Shown here in pieces: positions 29 through 23,974 of a stretch of 24,454 nucleotides of DNA (the first letter of the stretch is position 1; every line of letters starts with the position of its first letter). The DNA is from a virus: IMG/VR virus record IMGVR_UViG_3300025411_000082, positions 1 to 24,454 of that record; one strand, given 5' to 3'. Made by a program: the position numbers and the translations under genes. The notes below the pieces were generated by a model that saw only the letters and a program-made list of their open reading frames with translations, was not told the origin of the DNA and searched no databases.

Positions 29-640
29 TCATATACAGGTTTCTACTAGTTTCGCCTCTGCCTCTCTTCTTGCAAGCAATCCATCAAGACCCTTACCTTC
101 CCATATACGCTTCATTTTTCGTAACTCCTCTGCAATACCTCTATAATCACGCTTTGGCACAAGGAGCTTTATGTCTCTCATTTCGAGACGACTATCTCCT
201 GTCATACTCGTTCCTCGATTAAAAACAAGGGAGACAAGGGCTCCGTAAGCATTATCACAAAGCTGATCAAGACCTGGAAAAGCTTTCTCAGCAAGATTAG
301 CAAACTTAGGCCATGTTAAAGTATTGAATATATGTACAGCGTGATTCCAATCAACGGTAATATTAAGCGGTTTTATTTGTTGTACATACTCTCTACCTGC
401 TTGCCCGGTCTTACCAGAAGCACGTCTTACAGCTTCAAGTTGATCAGACGGTAAAAAGCCAAAAATTCTTGAAAGCTCATCTGGTGTATAATAACCACAA
501 TCAATACCTATACCAAGTGTTGTTCCTGACGCACCTCCTGGCCAAGTTGGATGTGTTAGGTATTTGTTATAATATGATTCATTACCACCAACTTCATATT
601 CAAGAATAAGATTTAATGCATCAGGTGATGGGTATTTCAT
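29..640 (-). CDS. Lysozyme-like endolysin
   Basis: A 203-residue protein that probably cleaves peptidoglycan at the end of infection. Near the N-terminus are a glutamate pair in LEYEVGG (E14, E16) and, after WPGG, the segment SGTTLGIGIDCGY (residues 38-50). This is the Glu...Thr-Gly-x-Gly arrangement of T4-lysozyme/pesticin-type muramidases. A later NAYGALVSLVFNRG (about 130-143) matches the conserved helix with N-R-G seen in these lysozymes. There is no signal peptide, so a holin is needed for release. The start ATG overlaps the stop of the upstream membrane-protein gene by 4 nt (ATGA), which suggests translational coupling. The lysozyme fold assignment is from motif recognition; which glutamate is catalytic is inferred. 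Confidence 0.8.
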   Translation of the reverse strand: MKYPSPDALNLILEYEVGGNESYYNKYLTHPTWPGGASGTTLGIGIDCGYYTPDELSRIFGFLPSDQLEAVRRASGKTGQAGREYVQQIKPLNITVDWNHAVHIFNTLTWPKFANLAEKAFPGLDQLCDNAYGALVSLVFNRGTSMTGDSRLEMRDIKLLVPKRDYRGIAEELRKMKRIWEGKGLDGLLARREAEAKLVETCI

Positions 641-1382: not shown

Positions 1383-1970
1383 TTAAAATAGAAGGAACCT
1401 ACTGGCTCTCAACCAGATATAGCCTAAAATAGCAGTAACTAATACAATAATAGCTATACTCTTACGTAAATTTGATGCTTCTAGCTTATAAACACGTGTT
1501 TGAAGAGTTTCAGCGTTTTTAATAATAATATCTTTCATTTCTTTTTGATGTTTAAGTTCATTTATTGTATTTTGATTATCCTTTACAAGATTAGCGTTAT
1601 CTTTCTTAAGCTGTTCATTAATGGCTCTATTTTTTAATAAAGCTTGATAATCAGACGAACCAACAACTACAACTCTTTCATCTTTATATTGATCTGGTAC
1701 TAAGACCACAGCTGTTTTACCTTTTTTAGGTGAATTTTTAACAACTTTATCAGCTTCATATACTGATTGAATAGGAATTCTATGTTTCGGTGTTTTTACA
1801 AGTTTTGTTGTTTCATTTGAATAGTAATAAGCAAGATCAACACGCTTCTTAATTAAAGAATCAGACGTTGCATATACATTTTGACTGAGAGCTTCGGATT
1901 GTTTCTCAGTATAATATGTACAAGAAACAAGAAAAGCAGCTATGGCTGCTAAAATAAGAATACGCTTCAT
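1383..1970 (-). CDS. Candidate unimolecular spanin (lipoprotein with C-terminal TM)
   Basis: A 195-residue protein with a bacterial lipoprotein signal: a basic start (MKR), a hydrophobic core, then the lipobox LVSC with the lipidated cysteine at residue 17. The middle is polar, and residues about 110-165 are Lys/Glu/Asn-rich with heptad-like spacing, consistent with a coiled coil. A single membrane segment lies near the C-terminus (about 171-189, KSIAIIVLVTAILGYIWL). An outer-membrane lipid anchor plus a C-terminal inner-membrane anchor is the layout of u-spanins such as phage T1 gp11, which join the two membranes in the last step of lysis. Its place next to the holin and endolysin genes agrees. 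It is longer than T1 gp11. Function is inferred from topology and neighbours. Confidence 0.65.
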   Translation of the reverse strand: MKRILILAAIAAFLVSCTYYTEKQSEALSQNVYATSDSLIKKRVDLAYYYSNETTKLVKTPKHRIPIQSVYEADKVVKNSPKKGKTAVVLVPDQYKDERVVVVGSSDYQALLKNRAINEQLKKDNANLVKDNQNTINELKHQKEMKDIIIKNAETLQTRVYKLEASNLRKSIAIIVLVTAILGYIWLRASRFLLF

Positions 1971-4506: not shown

Positions 4507-4935
4507 TTATATTACACTTAATGTATTTGGTAGAACTGATGTATTAATCCATAATGACCCTGTAGACAATCCACCAGATACTGTAGGTAAAATTGTACGA
4601 GCATTGTATTGTGTTAGTATCGGTAATATTGCGTAATTAGCAAAATTCGTACCTGGTGTACTGCTCAAATAATAAAAACAAGTAGTATTAGTATCATAAA
4701 CTATATCATTTAACTGTACATACTGACATGTTTGATTAATAAAACTTTGAGATATACTATTAATAGTATAGAATTTGATAGCTGGACATATACCACCTAC
4801 TGTTGAACCATCACCAACAAAGAGACGTCCAGAGTCGATAGTAAATCCTAACTCACCCTGATCGAGGATAATTTGCTGACGTTGAGCATCAGTTCCACGT
4901 CTGACTTTAACCTTTACTATTGATACATTAGCCAT
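4507..4935 (-). CDS. Short protein with the same GELG-GDG N-terminal domain
   Basis: A 142-residue protein whose first ~50 residues (RRGTDAQR, then GELGFTIDSGRLFVGDG and GG) match the N-terminus of the 529-residue fibre downstream. The remaining ~90 residues are Thr/Ile/Leu-rich and do not resemble that protein's C-terminal region. It may be a short fibre, an adaptor, or the first half of a two-part adhesin. A CATAAATA element lies 6 nt before the ATG. Confidence 0.65.
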   Translation of the reverse strand: MANVSIVKVKVRRGTDAQRQQIILDQGELGFTIDSGRLFVGDGSTVGGICPAIKFYTINSISQSFINQTCQYVQLNDIVYDTNTTCFYYLSSTPGTNFANYAILPILTQYNARTILPTVSGGLSTGSLWINTSVLPNTLSVI

Positions 4936-9500: not shown

Positions 9501-10290
9501 AATTGCGTTGATAGCTAACCCAAGCATCATATAAGAGTGTATCCGTCTTTGCGCCAGGCTTGGCCATACACAACCAAGCTGCTGTTGGTGGATAGGGAGT
9601 ATTGCCTCCTTGAACTGGCTTAAGGAATGCAAGGGTAGGATTTGGACCTGGAGTATAACCTACAAATTCACAAATATTATTGCCTGAAATATCCGTTAAA
9701 CTTTTTGATAAAATTAATACGTTACTATGTTGATCATATGCATAATAAAAAATTTGTGTACTATTTGGACCAAGACTATCTTGTTGACAATCAAATTGAA
9801 AAGATAAAAAAGCATCAGTAGCTGTAAGGTATCTATTTACTCCTTTATAAGAATGTAAGATTTTACAGAATAAATCATCTAAAAACAGTACTTCAAAAAA
9901 GCTTCTATTATCCAAATTATTAGATACACCTGTTAAGGCGACATTAGCAACACTTTGAGTTATTGCAGGCTCTTCAGTTACAAGAAAACGAGTATTATTA
10001 TCAATATCTGGTGTATTGTATGTTGCAAGATATGTACTAAATCCATTAACTGGTAATGGATCCAGAGATTGAATACTAACATTAGATGTTAAAGAATCAT
10101 AACGTGTAAGATAGAGATTTGAATAGTTATTTGTTGTTGTATCTTGTAAGTTACCGTATATTTCTGTTAACGGTAAATTATACCCTTGCTCTGTAAGAAA
10201 GAAGGACTGATTTAATGTCACTGTATCGTCCGATGCATATGCAGAGGATAAACCGATAAAGTTTGTTGGATTAAATGAGACAACATCCAT
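6592..10290 (-). CDS. Large structural adhesin (1232 aa) with LamG-like region
   Basis: The longest gene of the window. The protein is very rich in Asn, Thr, Ser, Tyr and Leu. A stretch in the last ~200 residues with GPHHFAVRFDSYHGEMTLFI, DGQEVGN and later FMFGTATF fits a laminin-G/concanavalin-like sandwich (a strand, a second strand, then IDG). Earlier parts hold propeller-like segments (TGYILCSSPT, NNSLYLTLGD, NNIWILDSQ). The terminal ~80 residues (IPCGRRNYVEEIERYF onward) are more charged and may be a docking segment. Its first ~130 residues weakly resemble the start of the 541-residue protein (Y-SN...LYRY...SNV). A GATAAATA element lies 9 nt before the ATG. It is likely a large tail or baseplate protein that contacts host glycans; this is inferred. 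Confidence 0.65.
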   Translation of the reverse strand: MDVVSFNPTNFIGLSSAYASDDTVTLNQSFFLTEQGYNLPLTEIYGNLQDTTTNNYSNLYLTRYDSLTSNVSIQSLDPLPVNGFSTYLATYNTPDIDNNTRFLVTEEPAITQSVANVALTGVSNNLDNRSFFEVLFLDDLFCKILHSYKGVNRYLTATDAFLSFQFDCQQDSLGPNSTQIFYYAYDQHSNVLILSKSLTDISGNNICEFVGYTPGPNPTLAFLKPVQGGNTPYPPTAAWLCMAKPGAKTDTLLYDAWVSYQRNFKTNTQDINVDRSIATVNSNLLVNSQYNNVVTDGQLNVNLLSLKNTNTPEGYQGRGNPFQANRSNYFTEDDASSRQYQKLFTGSNQLKGDDNISLGYQAYTSNLILPADKTTFFHTPQFLYPYVNINVANAGFIEAGAIAGDHPMKSDKIFKKLASAKYTSPFGTVSNETNGSFLCSWLSGSTNVITEPIWVDRYYNPSTISYIAALTGASVNYVTSFATLLSSVSSIIGNITVFDIPSQLTLEPGAYYAYQHIGNSYINQYIQSFNPYLVDNSFSAYLKTDDSNVLPAGLTANEFIFNGNQYTISNSLSTIDLSNQFTLSFYGNSTNWQKPLGYQLAGNFVHDGFGIFNTNNITPTLFVSGLTSLNILNTSLTPLKTINYTSTPLGFMRLEGMRDYYGIFNDGTFVRYDVADIPLISITNPLLEYAVSFDYTADTGYILCSSPTTTNILQADLINATLTDVTSTFNNIYYAPGCNIDTANTITYYNNSLYLTLGDQARLNNGFIYYLSPDYTSILKWDTTLLQVTTAFKSYSAFADYNFDFNNNIWILDSQKNYYAYSSSRALLLSGSFSPNSTQIIPFNFVGDGITTTFTLTGNGYSLNPSDYSLNYQYTTTLSAISSIINSQGVIIAANIYSLDTVQYSGTYKPNLDYTIGNNQIIFNTAPGLGYNISGNTTISIDTYSNNTINILNDITPTGLSQTVVVARNGYNPNTSLSGYQINVIALTGGVISNTIVDTPVNFNFDSTTNDNYIQNYVHAVYGDANLNVKAVLTNVYNSADTLTTEIITSLSGLDPGPHHFAVRFDSYHGEMTLFIDGQEVGNTYFQPRKYKFSNLIKRPFMFGTATFKNNVPLFKYLKNKNYLVNNLTITNYNLYNTSLNDFDIMSLTRQGMMIQDLVVDIPCGRRNYVEEIERYFKATVPGSKSTLYNLNIINTGITDPSLQQALQTRILTELNNTAPVYSQINKINWIN

Positions 10291-20757: not shown

Positions 20758-21208
20758 GGGGGCGTACTGGTTTCGACTTATACTCGAAGTTTGTATGGCA
20801 CGTAGTGGTTAATCAGTTGGCCACTTTAAAAAGCTGATTAAAAACATAAATGCAGAAGATAACTCTGACGCTATCCTTGCGGAAGCATTGTATTGTCTCG
20901 AGAACGCTGACGAAATCCTCGCCAGCTTTGAAGAGCCAGCACTCCTAGCTGCCTAAGGAACCAAAAGATAATCCTATTAAAGCTTTTGGAAATAAAAATA
21001 GGTTTAGAAGGTCTTGTGATTCTTAGAAAATTGAGTGCAAGCGGTGGTATGTGGTCGTTAATCACACATACAGGTAGGACTCTAAACATGGATAGGTCGC
21101 TAGTGCCTGGTTACCTTTAGTCAACCAAAGTACGAAAGCTAGCTAAGCGTGTAGAAGTATAAATAGAAAAGTATAAACACAGGGGTTCGACTCCCCTCGC
21201 CTCCACCA
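20758..21208 (+). ncRNA. ssrA: tmRNA (transfer-messenger RNA)
   Basis: The 5' end GGGGGCGTACTGGTTTCGAC and the 3' end GGGGTTCGACTCCCCTCGCC-TCCACCA are diagnostic. GGGGGCG pairs with CGCCTCC to give the acceptor stem, and CCA is encoded. An H-type pseudoknot upstream of the tag is explicit: AGTGG (20804-20808)/CCACT (20821-20825) interlocked with TTAATCAG (20809-20816)/CTGATTAA (20834-20841). The tag frame begins at GCA (20852) and ends at TAA (20954-20956). At 451 nt it is longer than typical bacterial tmRNAs (about 350-400 nt), partly because of the long tag. It would rescue stalled ribosomes and mark products for proteolysis during infection. It needs SmpB, which is not in this window. Confidence 0.93.
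20852..20956 (+). CDS. tmRNA-encoded 34-residue proteolysis tag
   Basis: From the resume codon GCA the frame reads AEDNSDAILA..., and ends ...FEEPALLAA before TAA. Start (A-x-D-N) and end (L-x-A-A) follow normal tags recognised by ClpXP/ClpAP. Most tags are 8-20 residues. This one has nine acidic and no basic residues, and one Cys. Confidence 0.75.
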   Translation, partial: AEDNSDAILAEALYCLENADEILASFEEPALLAA

Positions 21209-21314: not shown

Positions 21315-21677
21315 ATGGCTTCTACACGTTTAAGCGCAGCTCGCGATATAGCACATGGTAAATTTCCAGCAACAGGAGTGAAACGATCTCCTAAATGGGC
21401 TGCTGTACGCAAGGAACATCTTAAGAATAATCCAAAATGTGCAATTTGTGAAGGTACAGAAAAACTTAATGTACATCATATTAAACCATTTCATTTACAT
21501 CCGGAATTAGAACTCGATCCAAGTAACTTTATTACTCTTTGTGAAAGTGCAAGTTATGGTATTATCTGTCATATTCTTGTTGGTCATTTAGGTGATTATA
21601 AAAACATAAATCCAAATTCTGTAGAAGATGCTAAAATTTGGAACGCTAAATTAAAAGAAGATCATTTTCAGAAATAG
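21315..21677 (+). CDS. HNH nuclease-like protein
   Basis: A 120-residue protein. It has KWAAVRKEHLKNNPKCAICE (about 27-46), the zinc-type first Cys pair C-x2-C, then NVHHIKPFHLHPELELDPSN (H-H at 54-55, downstream N at 73), L-C at ~77, and a second CHILVGHLGD box (about 87-96). This is the HNH fold order (C-x2-C ... HH ... N ... C-x-x-x-x-x-H), with a final GHLG segment seen in phage HNH proteins. It may be a free-standing homing-type nuclease sitting among tRNA genes, a common place for them, or a packaging-associated HNH. There is no intron boundary around it. Confidence 0.75.
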   Translation: MASTRLSAARDIAHGKFPATGVKRSPKWAAVRKEHLKNNPKCAICEGTEKLNVHHIKPFHLHPELELDPSNFITLCESASYGIICHILVGHLGDYKNINPNSVEDAKIWNAKLKEDHFQK

Positions 21678-21898: not shown

Positions 21899-22041
21899 GA
21901 ATTATAGTAATCGGCAAAACCCTCTCTACAACTGTTCGAAGAGTTGTATGCATGGAACCGGTTCTTCGTAAGTTCATACAAAACTAGAACATAATCAAGG
22001 ACGCTTGAGGTTTTTAGGACAAAGGAACTTACATTAATTTC

Positions 22042-22113
22042 CGCAGAGTAGAGAACTGGTATCTCGTCACGCTCATAACGTGAAGGCAGTGGGTTCGATT
22101 CCCACCTCTGCCA
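22042..22113 (+). tRNA. tRNA-Met (CAT), initiator-like
   Basis: Acceptor strands CGCAGAG and CTCTGCC leave a C1-C72 mismatch while positions 2-7 pair. The D stem GAGA/TCTC has A11-U24, anticodon stem TCACG/CGTGA with loop CTCATAA (anticodon CAT), T arm GTGGG-TTCGATT-CCCAC, discriminator A, no encoded CCA. An unpaired 1-72 and A11-U24 are initiator marks; only one of the three G-C pairs next to the anticodon loop is kept (G31-C39). Elongator or Ile (lysidine) use is possible. It lies within the large structured RNA region. Confidence 0.85.
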
Positions 22114-22639
22114 ATTTTTTAGTTGCCACTTCCTTATTCAGGCATTATATTAAAAGAATAAGAATTGATCTTTGATAGTACATTTTGAAATTTGACTAGG
22201 CGCAAGTCTTAAAAGCTAAAAGACTCCCGCGATAGGTGATAGCGAAGCATTCGGCCGAGTGAACGTGTAGCCTATAAGATAAATCTCCGTGAAAGCGAAT
22301 GAGGTTTTCTAGTCATACAAATTAAGTTCCCACGTTGTAGGTATAATCCGTGGGAGAGATACGTTGAGTTGTCTGTTGGTATGTTAGTAGACGTATTTTC
22401 ATAGGAGGAGCCAAAAACTTACATACAGCTACGATCCCTTGCTTTAATAAACACAGACTGGTCGACGAGCTGGCTCCATGCCGGCACTCGATGAGGAGAG
22501 AACAAAATCCGGAACAAAAGCTTTTCAAACACCACAAATTTTCATATAATGCTACCATGATGTCGGTCTCAAGTCCGAGCGATAGGAGATGGCCTCTCCT
22601 ACGAAACGCAGAGAGAATGAAAACATAGACTGCAGTCTG

Positions 22640-22674
22640 CCCCTATTACCCTGATCAGGTAGTAGGGGTTTTCT
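22640..22674 (+). terminator. Intrinsic terminator of large RNA
   Basis: An 11-bp stem (CCCCTATTACC / GGTAGTAGGGG, one wobble) with a 7-nt loop followed by TTTTCT. It marks the 3' end of the structured RNA transcript. Confidence 0.85.
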
Positions 22675-22870: not shown

Positions 22871-23974
22871 ATGAGCACAACAAACACACTAGACAAGTTC
22901 GTCGCCAAGAGCAACGATATTCGCCAGACGCTGCAAGGTTATACCCTCGCTCCTCTGGATATTGAGTCCATCGAGAAGAACGGAAATAACTTCTCTTACA
23001 ATAACAACCGCCTATCCAGTACATCTCTTAAGAGTCTCCTTGGAGTTCTTGGAGTTAAGGATCAGCTCGTTAACGAGATTAAGGATGACAGCTCTCAGTG
23101 GGCTCCTCTCCATAATGCTCTTACGAACATTAAGAAGAACAAGCGTGTAACCGCGATTGTTAATAACCACAACAATGAGATTGTTAATCTCTTCGATCGC
23201 CCTATCAAGGAAGAGCGTCAGATTGACCTCTCAGCTGGTCTCCGTTATACAGAGGCCTTCTTGAAGGACAACGAGAATAATCTCGAACTTCGTGACTTTA
23301 ACTTTGATCCTACTAACATTAGTATTGGAATTAACTTCAAGAACCCTGATTCTGATATTGACGTATTCGGAGATGGTCATGATATGTGGAAGGGTGGTTT
23401 TGGAATGAACTTCTCTCTCAACAAGTCTCAGTTCTATCCCTATCTCCTCCGTTTGGTTTGCTCCAATGGAATGACCGCTGTTCATCGTATGGCCCAGCGT
23501 TTCATCGATAGTGCTGACTTCAGTCAGAAGACCTTCGATACTCAGGTTCGTAAGTTCCTAACTGGTGACGCTCTTCGTCAGGAGATTACGTCAAGTGCTA
23601 ATCGCCTTAGGGATAACAATGCCTCCCTTAGAGAATTCAATGCTGCTCGTAGTATTACGATGAAGTATGATAAGGAGCTAGCAGTAACTGCTTTCTCTGA
23701 TCACGAGATTCGTTCACGGTATAAAGAGGTCGGTATTGATCTTAATAAATCGAAGGGTACTCGTTGGCAGTCAACGGCTAACTCGAACGTTAATGCTTAC
23801 GATCTCTTTAATAAGATCACAAACGTTGCTACTCACAGTGTCTCTGACGAGAACGTAGCATTCAGGATGGAGCTCAACCGACTTGCCTCTGAGTTGTTCT
23901 TCAAGGGACCAGACTTCGCTTCAATCGCACCGGATCCATTCCGTGAGGTTGCACCAGCAAATCTTAACGCCTAA
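22871..23974 (+). CDS. DUF932-like early phage protein
   Basis: A 367-residue soluble protein. The central part, with FGMNFSLNKSQFYPYLLRLVCSNGMT (about 177-202), resembles DUF932 proteins of phages and plasmids (a hydrophobic strand, then R-(I/L)VC-(S/T)N-x-(M/L)T), which have no settled function. The N-terminal ~130 residues are Asn/Leu/Lys-rich. The C-terminal part has FNAARSITMKYDKELAVTAFSDHEI and a Ser/Asn-rich linker. Codons are richer in C/G ends (CTC, CGT, AAG, ATC) than in the adhesins. A sigma70-like promoter and a terminator make it a single-gene unit, probably early and strongly expressed. The DUF932 link is a judgement from the motif. Confidence 0.6.
   Translation: MSTTNTLDKFVAKSNDIRQTLQGYTLAPLDIESIEKNGNNFSYNNNRLSSTSLKSLLGVLGVKDQLVNEIKDDSSQWAPLHNALTNIKKNKRVTAIVNNHNNEIVNLFDRPIKEERQIDLSAGLRYTEAFLKDNENNLELRDFNFDPTNISIGINFKNPDSDIDVFGDGHDMWKGGFGMNFSLNKSQFYPYLLRLVCSNGMTAVHRMAQRFIDSADFSQKTFDTQVRKFLTGDALRQEITSSANRLRDNNASLREFNAARSITMKYDKELAVTAFSDHEIRSRYKEVGIDLNKSKGTRWQSTANSNVNAYDLFNKITNVATHSVSDENVAFRMELNRLASELFFKGPDFASIAPDPFREVAPANLNA

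Follow-up and report, generated by a model that had tools for sequence, protein, structure and literature searches.

A candidate modular phage RNA with a conserved core and a predicted divergent twister ribozyme beside tRNA genes

GOLLD and ROOL are large folded phage RNAs to which, to our knowledge, no function has been assigned. In the available part of PMC12286853, GOLLD is described as keeping its 3' region constant, with lower conservation in the 5' region, tRNAs that are sometimes found in the linker, and a cage assembly. Self-cutting RNAs form a further group of phage elements: theta ribozymes occur in the tRNA arrays of gut phages, where a part in 3' end processing has been proposed (PMC10879173, available text; the word "twister" is absent from its main text), twisters lie near genes of Mu-like phages (PMC10085705, available part), and hammerheads in phages are known (PMC3088659, available part). 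With phage hammerheads, Mu-like-phage twisters and phage theta ribozymes already described, ribozymes in phages are a known kind, and what is new here is a twister variant together with an RNA core. A literature search covering titles and the starts of abstracts, mostly outside the subscription literature, returned no twister in RNA arrays of T4-like phages among the matches listed.

The locus considered here belongs to a window of 24,454 nucleotides (the whole stretch of DNA that was analysed, from the virus record IMGVR_UViG_3300025411_000082) and resembles several of these systems in part. With GOLLD, as the available part of PMC12286853 presents it, it shares the character of a large phage RNA near tRNAs with a constant 3' part, a variable 5' part and sometimes a tRNA inside, and the module map of its relatives contains the same constant 3' region, less conserved 5' region and optional tRNA. 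It differs from GOLLD in that its core (C) measures only about 215 nt, a predicted twister lies behind this core and no model match was obtained. With ROOL, in the same partial description, it has phage encoding, a pseudoknotted fold and proximity to tRNA islands in common, but again without a model match: the Rfam models of GOLLD and ROOL gave none to E = 10 in the window and L010 stretches or to E = 1 in other relatives. Theta ribozymes, as far as the available text of PMC10879173 describes them, likewise place a self-cutting RNA in phage tRNA arrays (cleavage being predicted in the present case), although an HDV-like fold is combined there with tRNA trailers and a twister fold here with a non-tRNA RNA. 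The Mu-like-phage twisters in the available part of PMC10085705 have a comparable phage-related setting, whereas the present variant is located in T4-like phages and in an RNA array. The best reading is a new, previously uncatalogued class of pseudoknotted phage RNA with a GOLLD-like layout that, judged by model search, is not homologous to GOLLD.

Positions 21904-22674 had been interpreted in an initial annotation as a single RNA of about 770 nt. The dense RNA structure in this region is genuine, but it is split over several units (Table 1), since a tRNA-Met gene and a sigma70-like promoter are located inside; both had been missed, as had the twister ribozyme at the 3' end. The view that the region lacks a credible coding frame is borne out, as no conserved reading frame was found and the insertions and deletions in C are not multiples of three. 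The longest stop-free stretch on the minus strand over C spans 67-71 codons in 8 of 15 sequences (window included), 62 in one and 31-44 in six, and on these frames and indels a coding function was rejected. The picture of a large structured phage RNA beside tRNA genes also holds, with module A, domain B2 and core C each giving no Rfam match at threshold, and A, C and the twister covary strongly among relatives from other viral contigs. Of the two options that had been offered, a divergent GOLLD or ROOL member and a new class, the latter agrees with the best reading. The folding energy of 22155-22674 (z = -2.21; one of 100 shuffles folds as well) is by itself evidence of modest weight.

Table 1. 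Coordinates of features in the window and arrangement of modules in related loci
Locus	Feature	Position	Strand	Basis or remark
Window	Module A, structured RNA of about 130 nt	21904..22037	+	includes the triple-nested arm; tRNA-Trp on one side, tRNA-Met on the other
Window	tRNA-Met (CAU)	22042..22113	+	ARAGORN; Rfam tRNA, 59.4 bits
Window	Predicted sigma70-like promoter, TTGCCA-17-TATATT	22123..22151	+	10 of 12 consensus matches
Window	Conserved leader AUAAGAAUUGAUCUUUGAUAGUACAUUUU, predicted transcript start	22152..22190	+	alignment, module map, separate pattern scan
Window	Domain B2, form a, closed by GACUAG/CUAGUC	22193..22318	+	form b or absent in relatives
Window	Core C, multi-helix RNA, about 215 nt	22318..22533	+	12 distinct sequences; model R2
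Window	Divergent type-P1 twister with P5 hairpin	22535..22625	+	Rfam RF03160; covariation; model R1
Window	Local hairpin AGACUGCAGUCU between ribozyme and terminator	22627..22638	+	another palindrome, GAGTTCGAACTC, in all eight relatives inspected
Window	Intrinsic terminator and T tract	22639..22674	+	terminator 22639-22669, 12 pairs; similar sequence in relatives
Window	Module order			A, tRNA-Met, leader, B2a, C, twister
L010	Module order			leader, tRNA-Met, B2b, B3, C, twister, D
L013	Module order			A, leader, tRNA-Met, C, twister
L016	Module order			B2b and C; twister 6 kb distant
L073	Module order			module A, then directly twister and terminator
L152	Module order			B2a, then twister, without C
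L169	Module order			twister flanked by two reading frames
L010	D/D2 site	4810-4870		
L028	D/D2 site	9985-10060		
L102	D/D2 site	1815-1910		
L152	D/D2 site	3' of twister		

Relatives were obtained from viral contigs, 13 of which were reached via the protein encoded at 22871-23974 and the remainder through pattern scans with pieces of C, the leader, the twister and module A. Several loci are copies of one sequence, and the alignments comprised seven distinct sequences at first and later twelve for core C. In a collection of 50,697 phage records, which may omit records very near the window, nothing related to the RNA was found beyond tRNA-Met or a 30-base match, and the neighbouring protein had no relative there either; in bacterial genomes, model R2 supported none of 41 pattern hits. 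A T4-type major capsid gene is present in 6 of 10 records tested, its absence from the other four saying little because the records are fragments, and the capsid protein of one record is at most 35.7% identical to that of a Synechococcus phage. Among 42 stretches matching the twister pattern, 23 are without the AATGCTAC strand and appear by eye to be chance matches in coding sequence. The 19 stretches L152-L170 comprise 11 with the downstream GCAGAG strand, of which L162, L164 and L168 repeat other loci, one of type P5 (L166) and seven that look like coding chance matches (L153, L154, L156, L158, L163, L167 and L170). On reading, five further loci (L020, L026, L034, L067 and L068) were judged to match the patterns by chance and were set aside.

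The ribozyme predicted behind C shares with the type-P1 twister (RF03160) the stems P1 and P4, a double pseudoknot, a U-A cleavage site and conserved letters in L4 and L1. It differs in falling below the gathering score, in having one pair altered in each pseudoknot, in the loss of one P2 pair in the twister alignment (A3), in its position at the 3' end of a phage RNA and in its P5 hairpin, a feature present in 1% of annotated twisters according to the available part of PMC6154101. The window copy is predicted to cleave itself between U22547 and A22548, with P1 formed by 22539-22545 and 22617-22623. It matches RF03160 with 25.8 bits in cmscan (E = 0.0061 in 1.2 kb and 0.00056 in 111 nt) and model R1 with 71.8 bits, being one of the 14 source sequences of R1. 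Matches to RF03160 were obtained in the window and at 13 other loci, ranging from 25.8 to 45.3 bits (L088 45.3, L169 42.1, L159 36.9, L046 35.8, L155 32.9, L018 and L021 32.4, L060 30.2, L065 30.0, L157 29.3, L010 28.3, L161 27.5 and L165 25.8). None of these 14 reaches the gathering score of 67.2 bits, and four loci with the variant (L028, L073, L152 and L160) gave no match to E = 1.

In alignment A3, 93.1% of cells are paired, compared with 81.8% in shuffles and at most 51.5% in slid versions, 10 of the 20 pairs have changed on both sides, and all five measures were reached by none of 500 shuffles. Stems P1 and P4 are both present and covarying. Among 23 instances, collected with an expression that itself demanded the L4 loop and the GCAGAG strand, P1 pairs via several unrelated sequences, although L160 and L161 have only three pairs in an unbroken row and L155, cut off at the end of its stretch, has none; the three variable (outer) pairs of P4 are complete in 20. 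Three P2 pairs in A3 are invariant and the fourth is non-standard in all 14 rows, a U-G pair being possible in L088 and L155. The A directly 3' of the cleavage site is invariant, and both the L4 loop and the G adjoining P2 have been kept; the constancy of the L4 and L1 letters is partly built in, because the pattern that supplied most A3 sequences itself fixed the L4 loop and a portion of L1.

According to the available part of PMC5408937, pseudoknot T1 joins L4 to L1 by three Watson-Crick pairs, and in T2 a conserved GC of L2 pairs with two nucleotides from L4. Both are present here, and all cells pair in the 13 distinct rows, yet their letters depart from the Rfam consensus: T2 is A-C/G-U instead of G-C/G-C, and the middle pair of T1 is U-A, or U-G in L046, L010 and L157, instead of C-G. 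In the window, A22554 would pair with U22574 in T2 and U22569 with A22614 in T1. A covariance model free of pseudoknots cannot reward pseudoknots that are altered yet still paired, which is one likely reason for the low RF03160 scores and thus for a threshold search missing the variant. This suggests that phages may hold more such ribozymes below the Rfam cut-off. Also in favour of the ribozyme reading, a type-P5 twister above the Rfam threshold (45.7 versus 37.6 bits) is located at 189-264 (minus) of L166, a virus contig found solely via the core of the window twister, with which it has L4 and L2 letters in common; a sub-threshold match to a type II hammerhead lies 4 kb from it. The twister variant of L169 (2642-2706, minus; 42.1 Rfam bits), located between two reading frames, has a P1 of nine pairs.

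Core C is best read as a pseudoknotted non-coding RNA. RNAalifold on the 12 sequences proposes 35 pairs; in 12 of these both partners have changed and pairing has been maintained. A hand-set structure has 28 pairs, 11 of them so changed. In the latter, 95.5% of cells are paired, against 84.8% in shuffles and at most 52.9% in slid versions; four of five measures were reached by none of 500 shuffles and the remaining one, further pair types, by 31, and the hand-set pair of columns 12 and 46 pairs in no sequence. At least one pseudoknot is predicted, between GGAGCC (22407-22412) and GGCUCC (22472-22477), whose letters are nearly invariant. At the 3' end of C, a last helix can form in the 15 sequences checked from differing strands that include GGAAGGA/TCCTTTC, GAAAGA/TCTTTC and TTGAG/CTCAA, taken as the best stem from two short strands with no shuffled control. 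By eye, covariation (TTAG/CTAG in L008, L013 and L015) is also seen for an alternative helix that would join CTGG (22458-22461) to CCGG within the loop of this last helix; it is broken in L028 and competes with the extended helix chosen by RNAalifold.

Model R2 gives its own 12 source sequences 193 to 255 bits, as expected by construction. Fourteen records were searched whole, 12 of them chosen for holding C or a twister and some holding the same sequence here (L016 and L032; L028 and L036). Eleven contain one copy above 200 bits, one a copy truncated at the contig end, the L060 record a distant copy of 37.7 bits and the L070 record none; each record has at most one strong C and at most one strong twister. 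Beyond copy number, these searches added C in the L060 and L074 records and the twister in the L070 and L074 records. From the analogy with what has been proposed for GOLLD and ROOL, we infer that C may have a scaffold role in infection, as folded RNA or as ribonucleoprotein. At about 215 nt, C is compact enough for in vitro study; no record searched has more than one strong copy, and a predicted ribozyme follows it.

In 11 of the 12 loci that make up the C alignment (A2), and likewise in L102 and L165, the twister begins no further than about 5 nt from where C ends. It also occurs with no C adjoining it (L046, L060, L073, L088/L164, L152 and L169) and is therefore not dedicated to C. Conversely, C has no adjoining twister in L016 or in its distant copy in the L060 record. 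Modules were mapped by blast of representative modules on 24 loci (L088 giving no match) and by reading in further loci. Where they co-occur, the order is leader, optional modules, C, twister and then either a hairpin with terminator or D/D2. Between leader and C, loci have either no module at all or one or more from the set B2 (two forms), B3, X and tRNA-Met, the last being present in L010, L013 and L028. Modules thus appear to be exchanged as cassettes among related viruses at A/T-rich joints, which separates the kept part from the optional ones. D and D2, folded by eye, replace the hairpin and terminator of the window 3' of the twister. Domain X, also recognized by eye (L028 9590-9680 and L159), has a long inverted repeat; it follows the leader or tRNA-Met and precedes C or a remnant of C.

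Domain B2 corresponds to a multi-branch structure that had been proposed at 22194-22314. The swap of its closing stem, GACTAG/CTAGTC in the window and GACCG/CGGTC at the same place in other phages, fits that proposal, and tRNA-Met or B3 lies beside B2 in relatives. Each form varies too little to test the interior: among the seven B2b sequences only 3 of 33 pairs show changes in both partners, and mean column identity across the five B2a copies is 93%, which leaves B2 poorly tested.

At the right edge the intrinsic terminator that had been called is confirmed, whereas the late-type promoter suggested at the left edge, before module A, is discarded: its ATAAATA core is not enriched, occurring 15 times in the window against 17.6 expected. 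The sequence TATAAATA does stand immediately upstream of module A in one relative, L013, and upstream of the leader, not of module A, in L065, L102 and L159, occupying in L065 and L102 the place of the promoter. The sigma70-like promoter of the window is predicted from its consensus match only. By itself it is weak, because six such sites were found in 1.2 kb against 3.2 expected in shuffles, and it gains weight because several relatives with different flanking DNA keep promoter-like hexamers, by eye, before the same leader. A long-range pairing of 22454-22460 with 22633-22639 had also been considered. Its second strand is replaced by GAGTTCGAACTC in all eight relatives inspected, and a local hairpin is likelier, because GAGTTCGAACTC, like AGACTGCAGTCT in the window, is a local palindrome. 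A group I intron, prompted by the same pairing, was rejected, with no Intron_gpI match in the stretch to E = 10.

Modules, covariation and twister architecture are shown by sequence comparison; beyond these, we infer transcription, cleavage in the cell and a role of C. A reading that we regard as probable is an RNA of about 500 nt made from a host-type promoter, with C as its constant pseudoknotted part, a 3' end matured by the twister and exchangeable front domains. Transcription would start at the host-type promoter and end at the terminator; the twister right behind C would then cut between U22547 and A22548, giving C a defined 3' end and removing the terminator hairpin, while B2, B3, X or tRNA-Met would be gained or lost in front of C at A/T-rich joints among related phages. 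Processing is established for tRNA genes in general, so that where tRNA-Met lies between leader and C it would likewise fix an end on the 5' side of C. A wider view, which we hold tentatively, is that T4-like phages have a modular system in which folded RNA domains, tRNAs and a twister are exchanged as cassettes at short A/T-rich joints round a constant pseudoknotted core; tRNA processing would cut the core at its front end and the ribozyme at its rear, and the mature core would build an RNA-only assembly convergently resembling the cages of GOLLD and ROOL. That the twister has instead decayed, or is purely structural and non-cutting, with the RNA ending at the terminator, seems rather unlikely: the sub-threshold Rfam scores and the P2 pair lost in every A3 row fit such decay, but P1 and P4 have stayed paired through many different sequences, the A following the cleavage site is retained, as are the L4 loop and the G beside P2, and pseudoknot pairs that differ from the consensus remain paired, all of which a decayed copy would be expected to lose.

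It is possible, though we lean against it, that a tRNA-like array is cut into separate small RNAs, with C, B2, B3, A and the twister each on its own and not domains of a single large RNA. Modules are missing or moved in some loci, tRNA-Met sits between leader and C in three of them, C occurs without the other modules in L104, and in L160 a promoter can be made out by eye between C and twister; yet the twister directly follows C in nearly all A2 loci, and the order of leader, C, twister and terminator is constant where they co-occur. The two readings overlap, as one transcript could be processed to separate RNAs. Descent from GOLLD or ROOL, suggested in the initial annotation, would account for the phage setting, the tRNA neighbours, the constant 3' and variable 5' parts and the possible tRNA inside (known for GOLLD from the available part of PMC12286853), but the cmscan run proposed for it gave no match at the E values stated above and the available description in PMC12286853 makes no mention of a twister, leaving this origin very improbable. 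Scarcely more credit is due to a cis-regulatory leader or trailer of a neighbouring protein gene: in L016 and L032, a reading frame comes after B2 and C with no terminator evident by eye, and the L169 twister lies between reading frames, whereas in the window a terminator closes the unit and the sequence downstream of C and twister varies by phage (by eye). The RNA of about 500 nt with a constant core and a twister-matured 3' end is the reading preferred here.

Upstream of that predicted transcript, module A is structured in its own right. The triple-nested arm that had been noticed at 21968-22032 is real: RNAalifold on 14 sequences of the module finds 33 pairs, 16 of them with both sides changed. 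In the surrounding tRNA neighbourhood, a tmRNA of about 450 nt was matched at 20758-21208 (Rfam, 114.8 bits), with long inserts relative to the model and absent from the ARAGORN output. A sub-threshold group I intron match (34.8 versus 50 bits, cut by the stretch end) lies at L021 3907-4013 (minus), a site that coincides with L005 3386-3492; its coordinates fall just before the tmRNA 3' end, so that the L021 tmRNA may hold an intron. Between tRNA-Ala and tRNA-Thr, the window encodes an HNH endonuclease (21315-21677; PHROG HNH families), and inserts that by eye look homing-endonuclease-like are located between a tRNA or module A and the leader in L008 (3430-4230) and L013 (2780-3650).
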